Shown here piece by piece: positions 1,078 to 23,359 of a DNA stretch of 36,695 bases; positions within the stretch are counted from its first letter, which is position 1, and each line of letters begins with the position of its first letter. This DNA is from Cyanobium sp. T1B-Tous. GTDB lineage: Bacteria > Cyanobacteriota > Cyanobacteriia > PCC-6307 > Cyanobiaceae. The stretch covers positions 1 through 36,695 of the forward strand of contig NZ_JAGQBE010000019.1 in assembly GCF_024345475.1 (NCBI RefSeq), read 5' to 3'. The notes below the pieces were generated by a model that searched no databases, was not told the DNA's origin, and saw only the letters and a list, made by a program, of their open reading frames with translations. The position numbers and the translations under genes are program-made.

Positions 1078-1101
1078 GCAGCCTCCTAGCGCCTCAACTC
1101 C

Positions 1102-2343
1102 TCAAATCACCTGGGGAATGGTGATCCAACAGAAGGTGATGGCCGCTCCGCCCACCAGCACCACCACCAGTGGCCAGGTGTCATCAAGGCGATGCAGGTG
1201 GCGCTGGAGGGCCTCCTTGGCGACAGGGTCCTCCAGAGTTTCCATGACGGCGTAGCGGCGGCCAATCCAAAGCACCAACACAAAGGCCGCCAGGGTGACC
1301 ACGTAGGCCACCACGTACACCTGATCGAGAAAGGTGAGGAAGGGGAGATCCGGCAATTGATCGCGGTAGGTCTGCTGCAGGAAGACCAGGGTTAACAGCA
1401 CGGTGACGGGGATACTGGCGCGGGCATCCTGTTCATCGGGACGCACCTTGAACACCAGCAGCACCATGGTCATCAGCACGGCCAACGGCAGCAGCAGACG
1501 CCAGAAGGACGACCAGGAGGAGGTGCCGTAGGAGATCTCAAACAGAATCTGGCTGTAGTCGTTTTCCGCCCCACCGAGCCCGAAGTTGGTGGCGTAGTGG
1601 TGGCGGTATTCGGCGATCGACCAGCCGGTGTTGAGCCAACCGATGATGCGGGCATAGAGGCCCATGCCGCTGTTGCGGATCTCTGGAATCAGGCGCAGGT
1701 TGCGGTAGCCCAGCTGGCCATCCACATCATTGGCCTCAATCACCAGCGGCAAGCTGATGGTCATGAAGGGATAGTGCCGGAAACTGGCCCGATCCACGTA
1801 ATAGCGGCCGATATAGGTGAAGAGCTGGTAATAACTCCCGTCCGCCAGCTTGATCGGGGCCTTGCCTACCGGAGCAAGGCTGGAATCCTTGTCGGAAAGC
1901 AGGGTGTTCAGGACAATAAAAAGACTGGAGATGTCACCACCACGACTCTCCACATAGCGCTGCATCGGCTCTTCCCAGCGCAGCCACACATAACCGCTGC
2001 TGGAATAGCTAGGCACCGTGAGATCCAGCTCATAATTGCTGGTGGAGTACACCCCCACCTGCACCTTGTAGGGGGCCTGCTCGAGTTCGGCGCGATCGAC
2101 CCGCTCCTCCCCGGCGCCGAGTTGATCGCCCCGCATGGCACTCCACACGCCGATGGGGGGCTTTTCGCCAAGGGGCAGGGTGGTGAGGGCGCGGGAGGTC
2201 GAAGACAGGCGCAGGGCGTCGCGGCTCTGCACCGGACTCACGTCGATGCGGCTGATCCCGAGAATGGCCAGGATGGCGGCCAGAACAACGGCCACCATCG
2301 CCAGAACGTTCCACGGCCTTTGCCTGCGCTGCCCCATGCCCAC
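1102..2343 (-). CDS. pentameric ligand-gated ion channel homologue (ELIC/GLIC-like)
   Basis: The protein has 413 residues from a GTG at 2343, or 411 from an ATG at 2337. An N-terminal hydrophobic segment (about 11-31) acts as signal or anchor. A large extracytoplasmic, beta-rich domain follows (about 91-278), then four helices: M1 280-299 with a central Pro (RLLLPLAVLMTMVL), M2 309-326 (ASIPVTVLLTLVFLQQTY), M3 339-360 and M4 390-409. The M2-M3 link QLPDLPFLTFLDQ closely resembles the LP-x-LP-aromatic-x-T pattern I remember from ELIC and GLIC. FRHYPF (188-193) matches the FR-x-[FY]-PF beta6-beta7 motif of Cys-loop relatives. The extracellular domain has no cysteine, as in bacterial members. 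Such channels sit in the cytoplasmic membrane as pentamers and pass ions when ligand binds. Ligand and ion selectivity cannot be read here. It is divergent from a periplasmic binding protein. Most likely this family; a less likely alternative is an unrelated four-helix membrane sensor. Confidence 0.8.
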   Translation of the reverse strand: MGMGQRRQRPWNVLAMVAVVLAAILAILGISRIDVSPVQSRDALRLSSTSRALTTLPLGEKPPIGVWSAMRGDQLGAGEERVDRAELEQAPYKVQVGVYSTSNYELDLTVPSYSSSGYVWLRWEEPMQRYVESRGGDISSLFIVLNTLLSDKDSSLAPVGKAPIKLADGSYYQLFTYIGRYYVDRASFRHYPFMTISLPLVIEANDVDGQLGYRNLRLIPEIRNSGMGLYARIIGWLNTGWSIAEYRHHYATNFGLGGAENDYSQILFEISYGTSSWSSFWRLLLPLAVLMTMVLLVFKVRPDEQDARASIPVTVLLTLVFLQQTYRDQLPDLPFLTFLDQVYVVAYVVTLAAFVLVLWIGRRYAVMETLEDPVAKEALQRHLHRLDDTWPLVVVLVGGAAITFCWITIPQVI

Positions 2344-2398
2344 CCGCTGCTGTTCACCGAAGTTAAAGCTGATCAGCGGGCATCAGCCAGTGGCGGCG
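2344..2398. promoter_or_regulatory. short divergent intergenic region, channel / binding protein
   Basis: Only about 55 bp separate the two divergent start codons, so promoters must overlap each other or the 5' ends of the genes. If the alternative ATG at 2336 is the start of the binding protein, the two start codons overlap in the sequence CCATG. I see no strong -10/-35 or Shine-Dalgarno sequence on either strand. Confidence 0.35.
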
Positions 2399-3538
2399 AT
2401 GGGCATGCTCGGACTCACCCTGGCCCTGGCGCTCCCGGGCCTGCCCGTCCTGGGCGCCCCCGCCCCCAACCCCAAACCCGCGGCGGCGGAGCTGGTGCTG
2501 GGCCAGTCAGCGGCCTTCAGCGGCCCCTCTGCCATGCTCGGGCGGGAGTACCGGGAAGGGGCCCTGGCCTACTTCTCCGAGGTGAATCGCCAGGGCGGCA
2601 TCCATGGCAAACGGCTAAAGCTGCTCAGCCTCGACGACCGCTACGAGCCTCCCCTCACCCTGCGCAACACCCGACAGCTGATCGAGCGCGACAAAGTGTT
2701 CGCCCTGTTCGGCTATGTGGGAACGCCCACCGTCAAGGCTGTGCTCCCCCTGGTGGAGAGCGCCAAGATCCCGCTGATCGCCCCCCTCACCGGCGCCCAG
2801 CTGCTGCGCCAGCCCCATCGGCCCATGGTGTTCAACCTGCGCGCCAGTTACCACCAGGAAATGGACCGGATGGTCAATGACCTGGTCCGCAGCGGACGCC
2901 ATCGGATCGCCGTCGTTTATCAGAATGATGCCTTCGGCCAGGATGGGCTCAAGGGGGCCCTGAAGGCCCTGAAGCGCCACGGCCTCAAGCCTGTGGCCAC
3001 AGCCAGCGTGGAGCGCAACTCCACCCAGACGGGGGGAGCAGCCCGCACGATGCAGCAGGCCAACGCCAACGCCGTGTTGATCGTGGCCGCCTACCCCAGC
3101 TCCGCCGCCTTCAGCCGCGAGATGCACAGGCAGGGCAGCACCGCGCAGCTGATGAACGTGTCCTTTGTGGGCACCAGTGCCCTGCGGGCCTCCCTGCAGA
3201 GCCACGAAGCCAGCGGCATCGGCGTGGCCCAGGTGGTGCCCTTCCCCTGGAATGAGCGGGTGCCGGTGGTGCGCGAATACCAGCACCTGATGCGCCGCCA
3301 GCAGGCCAAACCCCACTTCGGCTTCTCAAGCCTGGAGGGATTTCTGGCCGCCAAGATGACGGTGGAGGGCCTGCGCCGGGCGGGGCCTTCCCCCACCCGC
3401 CAGCGGTTTGTCACAGCCCTCGAAACGATGCGGAATGTCGACCTCGGCGGCTACCGGGTGCAACTGAGCCCGAAGGACCACAACGGCAGCAACTACGTGG
3501 ACCTCACCTTTCTGGGCTCCCAGCGCTGGGAGCCCTGA
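2399..3538 (+). CDS. orphan periplasmic binding protein, LivK/PBP-I type
   Basis: The protein of about 379 residues starts with a hydrophobic segment (MGMLGLTLALALPGLPVLGA) and then follows the type I periplasmic binding fold for branched-chain amino acids, amides or urea: LVLGQSAAFSGPSAMLGREY at the N-lobe ligand loop, GGIHGKRLKLLSLDDRYEP, then ALFGYVGTPTVKAVLP, AVVYQNDAFGQDGLKG and LEGFLAAKMTVEGLRRAG. Binding proteins normally hand ligand to an ABC importer, but no permease or ATPase gene is adjacent. It heads a plus-strand operon with three membrane proteins and is divergent from the channel-like gene. The start is uncertain: GTG 2390 and ATG 2405 are also possible, and ATG 2336 would give a positively charged n-region that better suits a Sec signal, but would overlap the other gene's start. 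Confidence 0.85.
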   Translation: MGMLGLTLALALPGLPVLGAPAPNPKPAAAELVLGQSAAFSGPSAMLGREYREGALAYFSEVNRQGGIHGKRLKLLSLDDRYEPPLTLRNTRQLIERDKVFALFGYVGTPTVKAVLPLVESAKIPLIAPLTGAQLLRQPHRPMVFNLRASYHQEMDRMVNDLVRSGRHRIAVVYQNDAFGQDGLKGALKALKRHGLKPVATASVERNSTQTGGAARTMQQANANAVLIVAAYPSSAAFSREMHRQGSTAQLMNVSFVGTSALRASLQSHEASGIGVAQVVPFPWNERVPVVREYQHLMRRQQAKPHFGFSSLEGFLAAKMTVEGLRRAGPSPTRQRFVTALETMRNVDLGGYRVQLSPKDHNGSNYVDLTFLGSQRWEP

Positions 3539-3576: not shown

Positions 3577-4038
3577 ATGGCCAGCCTGCCGCTCGACCTG
3601 CCACCCGACCTGGCCGAGGGCTGGATGTTCGGCGACCTGGATTCCAGTGAGATCCTGCTGGAATACGCCCAGATCGTGCAACCCCCGTATCTGGTGGCCG
3701 GCGTGGGGCTGGCGATCGGCGTGCTCTGCGGCCTCACCTTCGCCAAGCTTGTGCAGGATCGGCTGGAGGGCTGGAAACAGGATCGTCTGGCCCTGCTGCC
3801 GCTGGGCAATGTGGCCATCACCCTGCCCTACATCGGCGTGGTGATCGGCATCACCCTGTTCATCGGTGGCAGCCTGCAGGTGTTCGGCTTCTCCGCCGGG
3901 GTGGCCTTGCTGGTGTCGTTTGTGCTCTCCATCGCCACCGCCGGAGCCCTGTGGGTCCAGCTGGAACGGCTGATGGGCCAGGTGGAGGATGGCACCTTCA
4001 GCGCAGTGGATTTCGACAACTTCGACCAATTCTTCTGA
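3577..4038 (+). CDS. small three-helix membrane protein, unknown function
   Basis: 153 residues with three predicted membrane helices (about 37-56, 78-101 and 104-126). Between the first two lies a basic cytoplasmic-type loop (KLVQDRLEGWKQDR), and the C-terminus is an acidic/aromatic tail (VDFDNFDQFF). I do not recognise a family. It begins 38 bp after the binding-protein stop and ends 4 bp before the next gene, so it is almost certainly co-transcribed with both. Context suggests a membrane partner in the same transport or sensing unit, but there is no motif that shows its activity. Confidence 0.8.
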   Translation: MASLPLDLPPDLAEGWMFGDLDSSEILLEYAQIVQPPYLVAGVGLAIGVLCGLTFAKLVQDRLEGWKQDRLALLPLGNVAITLPYIGVVIGITLFIGGSLQVFGFSAGVALLVSFVLSIATAGALWVQLERLMGQVEDGTFSAVDFDNFDQFF

Positions 4039-4042
4039 ACCC

Positions 4043-4546
4043 ATGCCCAGATTCTTTCGGATCGGCATTTTTACCGGCGTGGTGGGACTGATTCTCGCCA
4101 CCGTGCTGGTCTTTTCCCTGGCCGCCCTGCGGATGGTCAATGTGGCGCAAGATCTCCTCAAGGGCCAGGCAGGATTTGCCGAAGAACTGGAAATGATCGG
4201 GACGGTTGATCTGCTGTTGCTAGGCATTGGCATCCTGATTATTGCCGCTGGCATGATCAGCTTGACCATGCGAAATATCCCGATGCCGCGGGGCTTGCGG
4301 TTTCACGATCTGCATCAACTGAAAAGCACTTTTTCCAGCTTTTTGATTTTGATCATGGCCATTCTCTATCTGGAGAGCATGGCCTCCCTCAAGCAGCTGG
4401 AGATGAGCGCCAACACCCAACCAGAAGCCCTTCTCTATGGCGGGCTGGGCTTTCTGGCCGTCACCATTGGCCTAGTGATCTTTCAGCGGAGTGGCACCCA
4501 CCATCGCGCGGATCCCAAGGTTCCAGCACCCCACATCCAGGGCTGA
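4043..4546 (+). CDS. UPF0114 (YqhA)-like membrane protein
   Basis: 167 residues with four predicted helices (about 8-29, 50-74, 96-113 and 129-147). The middle, with VDLLLLGIGILIIAAGMISL followed by a short polar loop and LRFHDLHQLKSTFSSFLILI, fits the pattern I remember for the UPF0114/YqhA family, whose function is not established. The ATG at 4043 follows the previous stop by 4 bp, and the stop is 3 bp before the next start, so this is the third gene of a tightly packed operon. Upstream alternative starts would overlap the preceding gene and are less likely. Confidence 0.7.
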   Translation: MPRFFRIGIFTGVVGLILATVLVFSLAALRMVNVAQDLLKGQAGFAEELEMIGTVDLLLLGIGILIIAAGMISLTMRNIPMPRGLRFHDLHQLKSTFSSFLILIMAILYLESMASLKQLEMSANTQPEALLYGGLGFLAVTIGLVIFQRSGTHHRADPKVPAPHIQG

Positions 4547-4549
4547 GCC

Positions 4550-5233
4550 ATGACCACGCCTAGTCCCCAAAACACCAACCTCGGACCCGCGGATCTCCTC
4601 CGTAATCGACTCACCAGTGGTCGGGGAAGGCTGGCGGTGATCGCCGCCACCACAGGGGTATGGGTGATGGATTTGCTGCTGGTGCACCATCTCAAGAGCC
4701 GAGAGGTCATCACCCCCAATCTCGGCACATTGGTGCACAACATCGATGTGATCGGCACGATTGCTTTCATCGCCGTCACGCTGGGACTCACCATCAGCCT
4801 GTTCCGCGGCCACAAGCGCGAGCTGTTTCGCTGGGCCCTGGCCTACCTGCTGTTCTCCATGGTGCAGGTGATCACCAACGTGCTCTCGATGGTGGCCAGC
4901 GCGGGCAGTCAGCGGGGAGGGGGTCTTGGCGGCTTGTGGGACGTGGCCGCCGTTTACATGGAAAGCGTGCTGGTGTTCATGTTCGTGTACATCTTTCTGG
5001 ATGTGAGCACGCCAGGTGGGGCTTTTGTGTGGCCCAGCCGTGAAGGCGAGGAGCCACCTGAGCCCCACATCATCGACTACCTGTTCATTTCGCTGAACGT
5101 CAACTCCACCTACGGCCCCACCTCCGAAGCGGTGATGTCTCGGCGGGCCAAGTTGGTGATGGCCTTGCAGGTGTTGCTGGCCATCTTGATGCTCACCGTG
5201 CTGATCGCCCGCTCCGTGAGCTCCACGAGCTGA
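4550..5233 (+). CDS. membrane protein with degenerate K+-channel-like pore
   Basis: 227 residues. Four hydrophobic segments (about 29-48, 65-85, 93-115 and 130-152) precede a short re-entrant-like segment, IDYLFISLNVNSTYGPTSE (176-194), and a last helix (about 201-222, LVMALQVLLAILMLTVLIAR). The pore-like segment plus last helix resembles the two-helix ion channel domain, where T-x-GYGD is followed by an R-x-L-A...E...Q-x-Y-x-A-x-L-I-A-R helix. Here the filter reads STYGPTSE, so the GYG core and Asp are not conserved and potassium selectivity is unlikely to be standard. DUF1345-like proteins show a similar degenerate pore, an alternative assignment. It is the last gene of the binding-protein operon (3 bp after the previous stop). 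Confidence 0.65.
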   Translation: MTTPSPQNTNLGPADLLRNRLTSGRGRLAVIAATTGVWVMDLLLVHHLKSREVITPNLGTLVHNIDVIGTIAFIAVTLGLTISLFRGHKRELFRWALAYLLFSMVQVITNVLSMVASAGSQRGGGLGGLWDVAAVYMESVLVFMFVYIFLDVSTPGGAFVWPSREGEEPPEPHIIDYLFISLNVNSTYGPTSEAVMSRRAKLVMALQVLLAILMLTVLIARSVSSTS

Positions 5234-5264: not shown

Positions 5265-6281
5265 TCAGGCCGCCAGATACCCCTCGAGCATGGCGGCCTG
5301 GGCGCGCACCCCCTCGAGGGCCTTGCGCTCCAGGTTGCGCGTCTTGTCGCGGCTCATGCCCAGGTGCTTGGCAATGGCGCTGAGGCTCATCGGTTCAGAC
5401 TGGCCGGGTGCCTGCTCGCAGGGGATGCCGTAGCGCATCTTCAGCACCCGACCCTGCAGCTCCGGCAGCTGCTCCAGCAGCGCCCGCAAATCCCCCTTCA
5501 GGCACTCCCCATCCACCCGGTCCTCCGGCAGCTCACCATCACCCGCCAGCAGGTCCAGCAGCTCGGTGTCATCCCCGTCCCCCACCTTCGTCTCCAGGCT
5601 CACCGGCTGGCGTGCCCGGCACAGCAGGTCCTTCACCTCCTCTTCCGGCAGCTCCACCGCTTCTGCCAGTTCCGTCACCGTGGGCGTGCGCCCCAGCAGT
5701 TGGCTCAACTCCCGCTGACCCTTCTTCAGCTTGTTCAGCGTTTCGGTGATGTGGATCGGCAGCCGGATCGTCCGGCTCTTCTCCGCAATCGCCCGCGTGA
5801 TCCCCTGCCGGATCCACCAATACGCATACGTACTGAACTTGTAGCCCCGCGTCGGGTCGAACTTCTCCACGCCACGCACCAAACCAATGGTCCCCTCCTG
5901 GATCAGGTCCAAGAGCTCCATGTTCCGCCGCGTGTACTTTTTGGCCACACTCACCACCAGCCGCAAATTCGCCGCCACCATCCGCTCCTTGGCCCGGCGG
6001 CCCGCCTGCAGCCGCTTTTTGAGCAAGGGCGCGCTCAGGCCCGCCGCCTGGGCCAACTCCGCCTGGCTCGGCTTGCTCCCGATCCGGCTCTCCAGTTCAC
6101 CCTCGAGCTCCTCCAGCGCCACCAGCTCCTGCACCTGGCGACCCAGCGTGATCTCCTGCTCGTGCGTCAGCAGCGGCACCCGACCGATGTCACGCAGGTA
6201 ACTGCGCACCAGGTCGCCGCCACCCAGGGCCGAGGAGCCGTCCGAACCTGAGCTGGAGCCGAGAACGGGCAGGGAGGGCAT
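5265..6281 (-). CDS. group 2 RNA polymerase sigma factor (RpoD/SigA-like)
   Basis: 338 residues. Region 1.2 (about 22-55, [20 protein letters not shown]), regions 2.1-2.4 (97-177, including [31 protein letters not shown] and [18 protein letters not shown]), region 3 (178-255) and region 4 (260-326) are all present. The long acidic region 1.1 of the primary sigma is absent, so this is a non-essential group 2 sigma of the kind cyanobacteria keep in several copies for stress, dark or circadian control. In region 4.2 the recognition helix reads [14 protein letters not shown] instead of the usual RERVRQIE. Individual sigma names (SigB-SigE) cannot be assigned from one sequence. It is divergent from the pseudouridine synthase across a 62-bp gap that holds an inverted repeat. 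Confidence 0.93.
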
Positions 6282-21814: not shown

Positions 21815-23359
21815 ATGGTCACCGCGAAGGCTTCCATGGGCGCCGTGCTCACCAATCCACTGCGGGTCGGCCTCCGGCAGGAGCGGGTGATCCCGCCCCA
21901 ATGCCTGGTGATCTTCGGGGCCAGTGGCGACCTCACCCACCGCAAGCTGATTCCGGCGCTGTTCGAGCTGTTCCGCCAGCGGCGCCTGCCCAGTGAATTT
22001 GCGGTGCTGGGTTGCGCCCGCCGCCCCTGGAGCGACGAGGAATTCCGCCAGCGCATGGCCGAGGCGATGGCCAGCGAGGTGGCCGAGCACCGCATGGCCT
22101 GGGAGCAATTTGCGGCGGGGCTCTTCTACGAGCCGGTGGATCTGCAGGAACCGCCCACGGTGGTGCAGCTGGGCCAGCGGCTCGAGGCGATCGACCGGCA
22201 GCGGGCCACCCGTGGTAACCGCACCTTCTACCTGTCGGTGTCGCCGAATTTCTACGGCAGTGGCTGCCGGGCCCTGGCCGCCGCCGGCCTGCTGAGCGAT
22301 CCGGCCCGCAGCCGGGTGGTGATCGAGAAGCCCTTCGGCCGCGACTACGGCAGCGCCCAGGAGCTCAACCGGGTGGTGCAGGCGAGCGCCCAGGAAAACC
22401 AGATCTTCCGGATCGACCACTACCTGGGCAAGGAGACGGTCCAGAACATCCTGGTGCTGCGCTTCGCCAACACGATCTTCGAGCCGATCTGGAACCGCAA
22501 CTACATCTCCAGCGTGCAGATCACGGCCGCCGAGACGGTGGGGGTGGAGGAGCGGGCCGGCTACTACGAGAGCTCGGGCGCCCTGCGGGACATGGTGCAG
22601 AACCACCTCACCCAGATGCTCGCCCTCACCACGATGGAGGCGCCGGGTCGCTTCGACCCGGAGTCGATGCGCAACGAGAAGGCCAAGGTGCTGCAGGCGG
22701 CGCGGCTGGCCAACGAGGACGAGCCCTGGAAGTGCTGCGTGCGGGGCCAGTACGGGCCCGGCGGCTCCAACACCCGGCCAATCGCCGGCTACCGCCAGGA
22801 GCCGGGGGTGAACCCCGAGAGCACCACGGAGACCTACGTGGCGATGAAGCTGTTCATCAACAACTGGCGCTGGCAGGGGGTGCCCTTCTACCTGCGCACC
22901 GGCAAACGGCTGCCCAAGCGGCTCTCCGAGGTGGTGCTCACCTTCCGGGAGGCCCCGGTGCACCTGTTCGATGCCGCCGGTGGCGCCCCCACCCCCAACC
23001 AGCTGATCCTGCGCATCCAGCCGGACGAAGGGGCCGAGTTCAAGTTTGAGGTGAAGGCCCCCGGCTCGGGCATGCGCAGCCGGCCGGTGGACATGGCCTT
23101 CTCCTACGACGACAGCTTCGGCGAACCCAGCGATGAGGGCTACGTGCGCCTGCTGGCCGACGCCATGCTGGGCGACCCCACCCTCTACACCCGCAGCGAT
23201 GAGGTGGAAGCCGCCTGGCGGCTCTACACCCCCCTGCTGGAGCTGATCGAAGACTCCCCGTCCCAGCTGCCCGCCTACCCCTACGAGGCCCGCACCTGGG
23301 GCCCCGCCGCCGCCGACAGCCTGCTGGCTGAGGACGGCCTGGCCTGGCGACGCCCTTAG
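21815..23359 (+). CDS. zwf: glucose-6-phosphate 1-dehydrogenase
   Basis: 514 residues from ATG 21815; ATG 21836 (MGAVLTNPLRVGLRQ) is a possible start too. Zwf oxidises glucose 6-phosphate with NADP+ and opens the oxidative pentose phosphate pathway, which supplies NADPH in the dark. The nucleotide fold motif is VIFGASGDLTHRKLIPALFE, and the active-site motif is FRIDHYLGKETVQNILVLRF (about 195-214). Also present are GRDYGSAQELNRVV, RGQYGPGGSNTRPI, RTGKRLPKRLSEVV and the C-terminal RTWGPAAAD. It is followed 19 bp later by opcA, its activator. In cyanobacteria Zwf is thiol-regulated through OpcA and thioredoxin; this is known for the family and not shown by the sequence. Confidence 0.96.
   Translation: MVTAKASMGAVLTNPLRVGLRQERVIPPQCLVIFGASGDLTHRKLIPALFELFRQRRLPSEFAVLGCARRPWSDEEFRQRMAEAMASEVAEHRMAWEQFAAGLFYEPVDLQEPPTVVQLGQRLEAIDRQRATRGNRTFYLSVSPNFYGSGCRALAAAGLLSDPARSRVVIEKPFGRDYGSAQELNRVVQASAQENQIFRIDHYLGKETVQNILVLRFANTIFEPIWNRNYISSVQITAAETVGVEERAGYYESSGALRDMVQNHLTQMLALTTMEAPGRFDPESMRNEKAKVLQAARLANEDEPWKCCVRGQYGPGGSNTRPIAGYRQEPGVNPESTTETYVAMKLFINNWRWQGVPFYLRTGKRLPKRLSEVVLTFREAPVHLFDAAGGAPTPNQLILRIQPDEGAEFKFEVKAPGSGMRSRPVDMAFSYDDSFGEPSDEGYVRLLADAMLGDPTLYTRSDEVEAAWRLYTPLLELIEDSPSQLPAYPYEARTWGPAAADSLLAEDGLAWRRP

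Follow-up and report, generated by a model that had tools for sequence, protein, structure and literature searches.

The window (the whole 36,695-nucleotide stretch of Cyanobium sp. T1B-Tous analysed here) probably encodes a two-protein ligand-gated channel. Sequence comparison suggests that it consists of a pentameric ligand-gated ion channel (pLGIC) and a separate binding protein (PBP-I), which would dock on a linker near the N-terminus of the channel.

Channel gene, fold and pore

The pLGIC subunit gene is located at 1102..2343 on the minus strand (413 aa as listed). The open reading frame check showed that this frame is open. A 98%-identical stop-free frame over residues 1–413 is present in another genome of the genus, and matches at E ≤ 0.001 were found in 21 of the 60 genomes searched, host genome included. 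A chance open reading frame is therefore excluded, and 1102-2343(-) is a real gene. Translation of the channel probably does not start at the GTG at 2343. The conserved N-terminus of the relatives begins at residue M3, so the likely start is the ATG at 2335–2337. The first-pass annotation placed a signal segment at the N-terminus. A helix (residues 9–31) is indeed present, but by its sequence it looks like an uncleaved anchor, not a cleaved signal peptide. W11 and N12 are invariant in an alignment of 14 close relatives. The putative anchor TM0 (2251..2310, minus strand, residues 12–31) has basic residues before it and a conserved linker of about 60 residues after it.

A sequence search with the single channel protein matched ELIC at 1.8e-7. 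The family profile, built from a 16-sequence alignment of relatives, matched ELIC at 3e-15 (profile positions 28–305) and GLIC at about 1e-9 (positions 29–342 of 346), and these matches span the extracellular and membrane halves. Of the two Pfam families named in the first-pass annotation, PF02932 was matched by the channel protein at E 0.0016 with 19.2 bits, below the cut-off of 28.1, and PF02931 gave no match at E ≤ 1. Among the 16 relatives, PF02932 was matched in 8 at E ≤ 0.1 (best 2.6e-5) and PF02931 in none at E ≤ 0.1. The NCBIfam models TIGR00860 (9.1e-7) and NF033918 (2e-6) were matched with scores far below their curated cut-offs.

The single-chain AlphaFold2 model of the channel was built on 36 sequences and had a mean pLDDT of 63.6, with weak confidence in M2, the M2–M3 region, the linker and the Pro loop. 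It predicted confident beta strands between residues 92 and 274 of the extracellular part, and helices at 276–299, 302–327, 334–369 and 373–407, where M1–M4 are expected. At moderate model confidence, a beta-sandwich extracellular domain and four membrane helices in the pLGIC arrangement are thus present, as the first-pass annotation had anticipated. All 50 Foldseek matches listed for the model were pLGICs (best E 4.6e-14). The second aligner, VIA, re-aligns Foldseek matches only; its 50 listed matches were likewise all pLGICs, with DeCLIC (Z 16.7, rmsd 3.9 over 286 residues), GLIC (Z 16.6) and sTeLIC (Z 16.4) in effect tied. Residues 1–84 of the channel lie outside the coverage of the fold matches listed.

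The sequence features that the first-pass annotation had described were recovered: FRHYPF is at residues 188–193, and the M2–M3 link with the beginning of M3 (LPDLPFLTFLDQVYVVAYVV) is at residues 330–349. The extracellular part is cysteine-free, since the only cysteine is Cys405, and the Cys-loop disulphide of the animal branch is absent. The Pro loop FRHYPFM (1762..1782, minus strand, residues 188–194) has Met at the position that is usually Asp. M1 (1447..1518, minus strand, residues 276–299) contains Pro286, and the pre-M1 position that is usually Arg is G273 or T274. This position is uncertain by one, because R in the relatives lies 13 residues before the M1 proline and in ELIC 12. M2 (1363..1440, minus strand, residues 302–327) carries D306(-2'), R308(0'), S310(2'), P312(4'), T314(6'), L317(9'), F321(13') and Q324(16'), with prime numbering taken from the ELIC alignment and from ELIC mutant names in PDB titles. 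M3 (1237..1344, minus strand, residues 334–369) follows the M2–M3 link LPDLP, and M4 (1123..1227, minus strand) spans residues 373–407, both as predicted by AlphaFold2. We conclude that the product of 1102-2343 is firmly placed, by profile and predicted fold, as a divergent member of the pLGIC/Pro-loop receptor superfamily.

Conservation was examined in 117 family rows with both motif columns, obtained from 177 channel frames (125 distinct, 119 of at least 250 aa). P192 of the Pro loop, P286 of M1 and P331 of the M2–M3 link are each kept in 117/117 rows, and so are the basic 0' residue (R/K), the 4' Pro and the 9' Leu. An acid at -2' or -1' is present in 115/117 rows. In the motif account of the 2016 inventory PMC4795631, the Pro-loop Asp (93%) and pre-M1 Arg (94%) of 561 sequences form a salt bridge, the Pro-loop proline is called absolutely conserved, and Table 1 gives 77% for the M1 proline and 88% for the M2–M3 proline. 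The Asp–Arg interface pair is absent from the window channel (M194, G273/T274) and from the window-type copies, in which residue 194 is M, V, L, I or T and residue 273 is Gly. Across the family, position 194 is acidic in 31/117 rows, R/K occurs at 273 in 23/117 and at 274 in 10/117 rows, and both an acid at 194 and R/K at 273 occur in 15/117 rows. Strict covariation of 194 and 273 was considered; besides the 15 acid–basic rows there are many mixed rows, and a compensatory pair is not claimed. Superfamily membership stands despite the missing pair, because that account in PMC4795631 names only the proline as absolute. Regarding selectivity, D(-2') argues for cations and A(-1')-R(0') resembles the anion motif given in PMC549065. 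Cation flow appears likelier, since nearly all relatives have acids at -2' or -1'.

Relatives of the channel were found at 1e-8 in 100 of 300 genomes of the host's family, presumably Cyanobiaceae to judge by the named hosts, host genome included (79/197 good-quality genomes, 18/59 genera). Phylum-wide, 25/292 genomes matched at 1e-8, again with the host genome included. PF02931 matched 12 of the same 292 genomes, the host genome not among them, and coincided with 2 of the 35 channel match places listed, so the Pfam ligand-binding-domain model largely misses this family. With 100 of 300 family genomes matching and at least one Synechococcus sequence in the 2016 inventory (PMC4795631), the patchy distribution assumed for such bacterial channels is tempered for this group. 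The absence of a characterised picocyanobacterial example agrees with searches of the open-access literature. Most named records with the channel come from strains and bins of Cyanobium or Synechococcus. The gene pairs also occur in L046 and L073, whose titles give Bifidobacterium breve and Phycisphaerae bins; mislabelling or contamination of these bins is the probable cause. Three full channel copies (C34, C65, C58) are present in the host genome, along with a fragment lying at the end of a contig. Contig C65 terminates (22252–22443) in a second 3' end of the channel gene, 95.3% identical over 215 bases to window 1083–1296; either the gene occurs twice or the assembly mixes strains.

Binding-protein gene and its pairing with the channel

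The PBP-I (Peripla_BP_6) gene at 2399..3538 on the plus strand encodes the proposed partner, with a hydrophobic N-terminus and the C-terminal tail GSQRWEP. The two genes of the window are separate and divergent, with no PBP domain fused into the channel chain. Between their 5' ends as listed is an intergenic space of 2344..2398, in or near which both promoters would have to lie because the genes diverge there. PF13458 matched the product at 1.3e-60 (206.3 bits, Pfam cut-off 31.7). The PBP model had a pLDDT of 82.8 and the PBP-I fold by Foldseek (1.2e-30). Its fold and profile neighbours include 4kv7 and 3lop, with profile E down to 8.8e-75. Leucine, hydroxybenzoate, urea and other compounds appear in the titles of its fold matches; those of the three nearest mention no ligand.

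The pairing was examined at 33 named loci, of which 32 were testable after L054 was dropped for having no upstream sequence. At 29/32 loci, no more than about 260 bases separate a divergent PBP gene from the aligned start of the channel. L071 and L072 have a disrupted channel frame, L072 a disrupted PBP frame as well, and the PBP of L058 and L065 continues past the contig end. L061, L069 and L070 have no PBP beside the channel; a search of their genomes turned up no close PBP, with a best E of 1.2e-6 in one and nothing in the other two. In the 300-genome survey, a divergent PBP lies beside 41 of the 46 strongest channel matches (E ≤ 5.5e-139). The other five are G253:C155, at a contig end, and G084, G287, G201 and G189, without a PBP beside the channel and with no PBP match at 1e-40 anywhere in the genome. 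The PBP is therefore not indispensable, because these four close relatives keep the channel without it.

Entered in the neighbour tally were every PBP match at E ≤ 1e-40 (61) and 63 of the channel matches listed, made up of all 46 down to E 5.5e-139 plus 17 further ones. Forty-nine of the 61 adjoin a channel gene, 44 divergently and 5 convergently. Profile position 360, in the C-terminal tail, is reached by 45/61 PBP matches, all beside a pLGIC. Of the remaining 4/49, three convergent ones stop at 324 but reach 360 in a separate search, and one is cut by a contig end. None of the 12 PBPs without a pLGIC neighbour reaches position 360. At the 9 of these 12 places that were fetched, the proteins end in ..FIH, ..YIH or ..FIN, not in a GSQRWEP-like tail. 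These PBPs without a channel neighbour (L169–L177) thus carry another C-terminal tail. In L175 (3530–6500), the PBP gene appears to share an operon with genes for a membrane protein and a PstS-like protein (identified by eye), perhaps another partner system.

Tandem pairs in G014 and G001 show that both genes were duplicated together. The six a-type pairs form one group in the channel and PBP trees alike, with a common-ancestor size of 6 for the 6 rows. Channel and PBP distances are correlated (Spearman 0.87, 0/1000 permutations); this figure includes ordinary vertical descent and is for that reason not counted as evidence of contact. Other ARRANGEMENTS were found: in a subclass of about 41% identity, the PBP is convergent and 15–24 bases away (L122, L137, L141, L143), and in a subclass of about 27% identity, a more distant PBP-I lies downstream on the same strand (L119, L133, L135, L138, L142, L065). 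The PBP of L038 is convergent and 431 bases away. Most fetched copies of the distant subclasses have no PBP beside the channel. A shared promoter cannot explain all of the pairing, since pairs are also convergent or on the same strand. Overall, the gene arrangement suggests that the PBP-I product and the channel are likely partners.

A small membrane protein gene at 3577..4038 (plus strand), of no firm family, lies beside the pair in 16/33 named loci and is a candidate association only. A role in the system for this protein or for the sigma factor at 5265–6281 was considered and set aside; they are neighbours in many loci, probably by plain synteny. Two membrane proteins, UPF0114 (9.2e-9) and a weak DUF1345, are encoded at window 3989–5233, between the pair and the sigma-70 factor, and a DDE transposase is encoded at 128–913, just downstream of the channel gene. 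Long frames in L104–L109 (676–885 aa) were considered as PBP–channel fusions and rejected by eye, because the upstream parts look like non-coding open frame. A Met and a signal-like stretch precede the domain, and the long frames appear by eye to be read-through upstream of the real start. L104–L109 and L123 form a further subclass with a PFG loop, SERLAIPPVILLTLVFMQQ in M2 and an acidic pre-M1 residue (E or D); no PBP was found beside these channels. A PF02931-positive pLGIC (G112:C1:712684-713259) lies about 3.6 kb from a PBP–channel pair (716857–719275). The spacing is the same in G137, and the two pLGIC kinds cluster.

Linker and proposed mechanism

The linker (2071..2250, minus strand, residues 32–91) has 14 columns that are at least 90% conserved among the 38 PBP-paired rows. 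Its core (2185..2223, minus strand, residues 41–53) contains R41, D42, L44, R45, L46, R51 and L53 and is the proposed PBP contact. The pattern R41 D42 x L44 R45 L46 is common to all 38 window-type paired rows and L129, with Val for L44 in one row; the convergent subclass has Glu for D42. Unpaired copies with a linker mostly have TGDYLEL or are otherwise diverged. The RDxLRL-like motif was tested as R[DE]x[LVI][RH]L; motif and region had been seen before testing, and the alignment was at hand when the pattern was drawn up. The tree held 64 rows (42 paired, 17 unpaired and 5 outgroup, outgroup row L119 having a PBP-I gene downstream) and left out near-duplicates, L054 (contig edge), L071 and L072 (broken frames) and most distant-subclass rows. 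The motif is present in 42/42 divergently or convergently paired tree rows and absent in 16/17 unpaired ones, two of the 16 being without an aligned linker. The exception, L114, keeps the motif through the allowed H (RDSLHL); a 42-residue PBP-like stretch lies beside its channel, and no PBP of the window type was found in its genome. At L152 and L153, the lack of a PBP is uncertain because only 381 and 172 bases are available on the 5' side. Seven PBP-neighboured rows have no linker motif, namely L119, L133, L135, L138, L142 and L065 (same strand) and L038 (convergent). They belong to distant subclasses without a linker and are outside the 42.

Changes at conserved sites were concentrated in the linker of PBP-less copies. 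The proportions in linker and elsewhere were 5/14 vs 3/143 in L061 (p 1e-4), 6/14 vs 12/143 in L069, 6/14 vs 9/143 in L070, and 6/14 vs 4/143 in L178 (p 3e-5), the last fetched after the idea was formed. The paired control, at first 15 paired rows and later all 38, gave 26/552 in the linker vs 180/5552 elsewhere when pooled, and the lowest p was 0.14. A scan without a preset region placed the densest changes of L061, L069 and L178 in segments beginning in or overlapping the linker. Four new paired loci (L183, L184, L185, L188) keep the motif; they are 80–99% identical to rows already used. Most changes are common to L069, L070 and L178, which were therefore counted as one loss, making two losses in the window-type clade. 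In the tree-based pair test, 2.9 of 3 supported pairs agreed (median p 0.25, not significant), a test that cannot reach significance with only three supported pairs and few independent losses. In L061, the small membrane-protein gene directly adjoins the channel gene, a layout that a clean excision of the PBP gene would leave.

We infer that the PBP docks through the channel linker. The soluble PBP would capture a small molecule in the periplasm, amino-acid-like or an aromatic acid by fold kinship. Once liganded, the PBP would dock on a presumed homopentamer, at the linker and the top of the extracellular domain. Docking would open or close a pore lined by S2', T6', L9', F13' and Q16', and a flux through it, more likely of cations, would report the solute to the cell. 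Gating would have to cross from the extracellular domain into the membrane domain with the usual Asp–Arg salt bridge missing; a hydrophobic or Thr residue and Gly occupy those positions. Tentatively, we speculate that ligand sensing may have been handed to a diffusible PBP docking on a purpose-made N-terminal linker, that the Asp–Arg coupling bridge may have been given up, and that loss of the partner may lead to linker decay; such a history is possible, if somewhat short of probable.

Alternatively, the pLGIC could itself bind a ligand or protons, as ELIC and GLIC do, and the PBP could be functionally related and never touch it. The PBP might, for example, feed an ABC transporter for the same solute, with the divergent layout co-regulating both. 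ELIC and GLIC function on their own, the aromatic residues W120 and W123 are conserved in 108 and 104 of the 117 rows, respectively, and PBP-less orthologues persist. A PBP could also draw on permeases of the host genome, which has five PF02653 matches, but they are on C70, C51 and C43, and none is on C34 or C65, the contigs of the paired PBPs. Co-regulation does not account for the convergent pair, which shares no promoter region. The linker is changed where the PBP is missing, and PBPs with the tail type occur only beside pLGICs in the 300 genomes. We consider an own-ligand channel unlikely, and doubtful too the transporter-feeding role of the PBP that would go with it.

The loss of the Asp–Arg interface pair also raises the reading that channel function has been lost and that the PBP signals through a non-conducting or non-gating pLGIC fold, a receptor scaffold. 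Met at the Asp position and Gly or Thr at the Arg position would suit such a scaffold, as would the family frequencies of the acid and the acid–basic pair given above, set against 93% and 94% in the superfamily (PMC4795631, same account). The 9' Leu, the basic 0' residue, P331 and the acid at -2' or -1' are nevertheless retained almost throughout, which is not expected in a dead pore, and a scaffold is improbable. A chance resemblance, with the product being a secreted beta protein with four helices and not a pLGIC, might be read from the Pfam and NCBIfam scores under the cut-offs and the unmatched PF02931. It is contradicted by the profile and fold matches over both halves and the invariant Pro-loop, M1 and M2–M3 prolines, and hardly any weight remains on it. 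A PBP-gated channel is the reading that we prefer.

Relation to known systems

ELIC is the best sequence match of the window channel in the extracellular and membrane domains. In the profile alignment, ELIC has the Pro-loop Asp and the pre-M1 Arg, whereas the window channel has neither. To our knowledge, ELIC has no N-terminal helix and linker of the window-channel kind and no partner protein. GLIC and sTeLIC share the fold with the window channel (VIA Z about 16 over about 280 residues) at 12–15% identity, and GLIC is also cyanobacterial. They are described as proton-gated and alkaline-pH-gated, respectively, in PDB titles and names. DeCLIC and other pLGICs with extra N-terminal domains have the core fold and an extra N-terminal part in common with the window channel. 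The DeCLIC-type extra domain is within the chain, whereas the window system has a separate protein and a short linker. The LIVBP-like proteins 4kv7, 3lop and 4m88 share the PBP fold with the partner at 28–35% identity, and we know of no action of these proteins with a channel.

Tasneem et al. 2004 (PMC549065) reported bacterial pLGICs with fused PBP-I domains or with stand-alone PBP-II genes as neighbours, and proposed a chemotactic role. The PBP-I-fused pLGICs of Magnetospirillum and Bradyrhizobium and the PBP-II neighbours described there have the idea of binding-protein and pLGIC cooperation in common with the window system. The window system differs from those cases in that its PBP-I is stand-alone and divergent or convergent, its hosts are picocyanobacterial and its linker pattern tracks the pairing. 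No account of pLGIC–PBP pairs in picocyanobacteria was found in the open-access literature. The finding is only partly new, because the idea of a binding protein with a pLGIC dates from 2004 (PMC549065). The pairing fits this idea, and the new parts are the separate PBP-I and the linker that follows the pairing. The first-pass annotation mentions neither the binding-protein gene nor the linker pattern nor the absent Asp–Arg pair.

According to a passage of the 2016 inventory (PMC4795631), none of the unicellular pLGICs has a known biological role. The window channel offers a natural absence of a gating salt bridge that is otherwise 93–94% conserved. The genome comparisons point to a likely partner and a candidate docking site, and the orthologues that lack the partner serve as natural controls; with these the role of bacterial pLGICs becomes testable.
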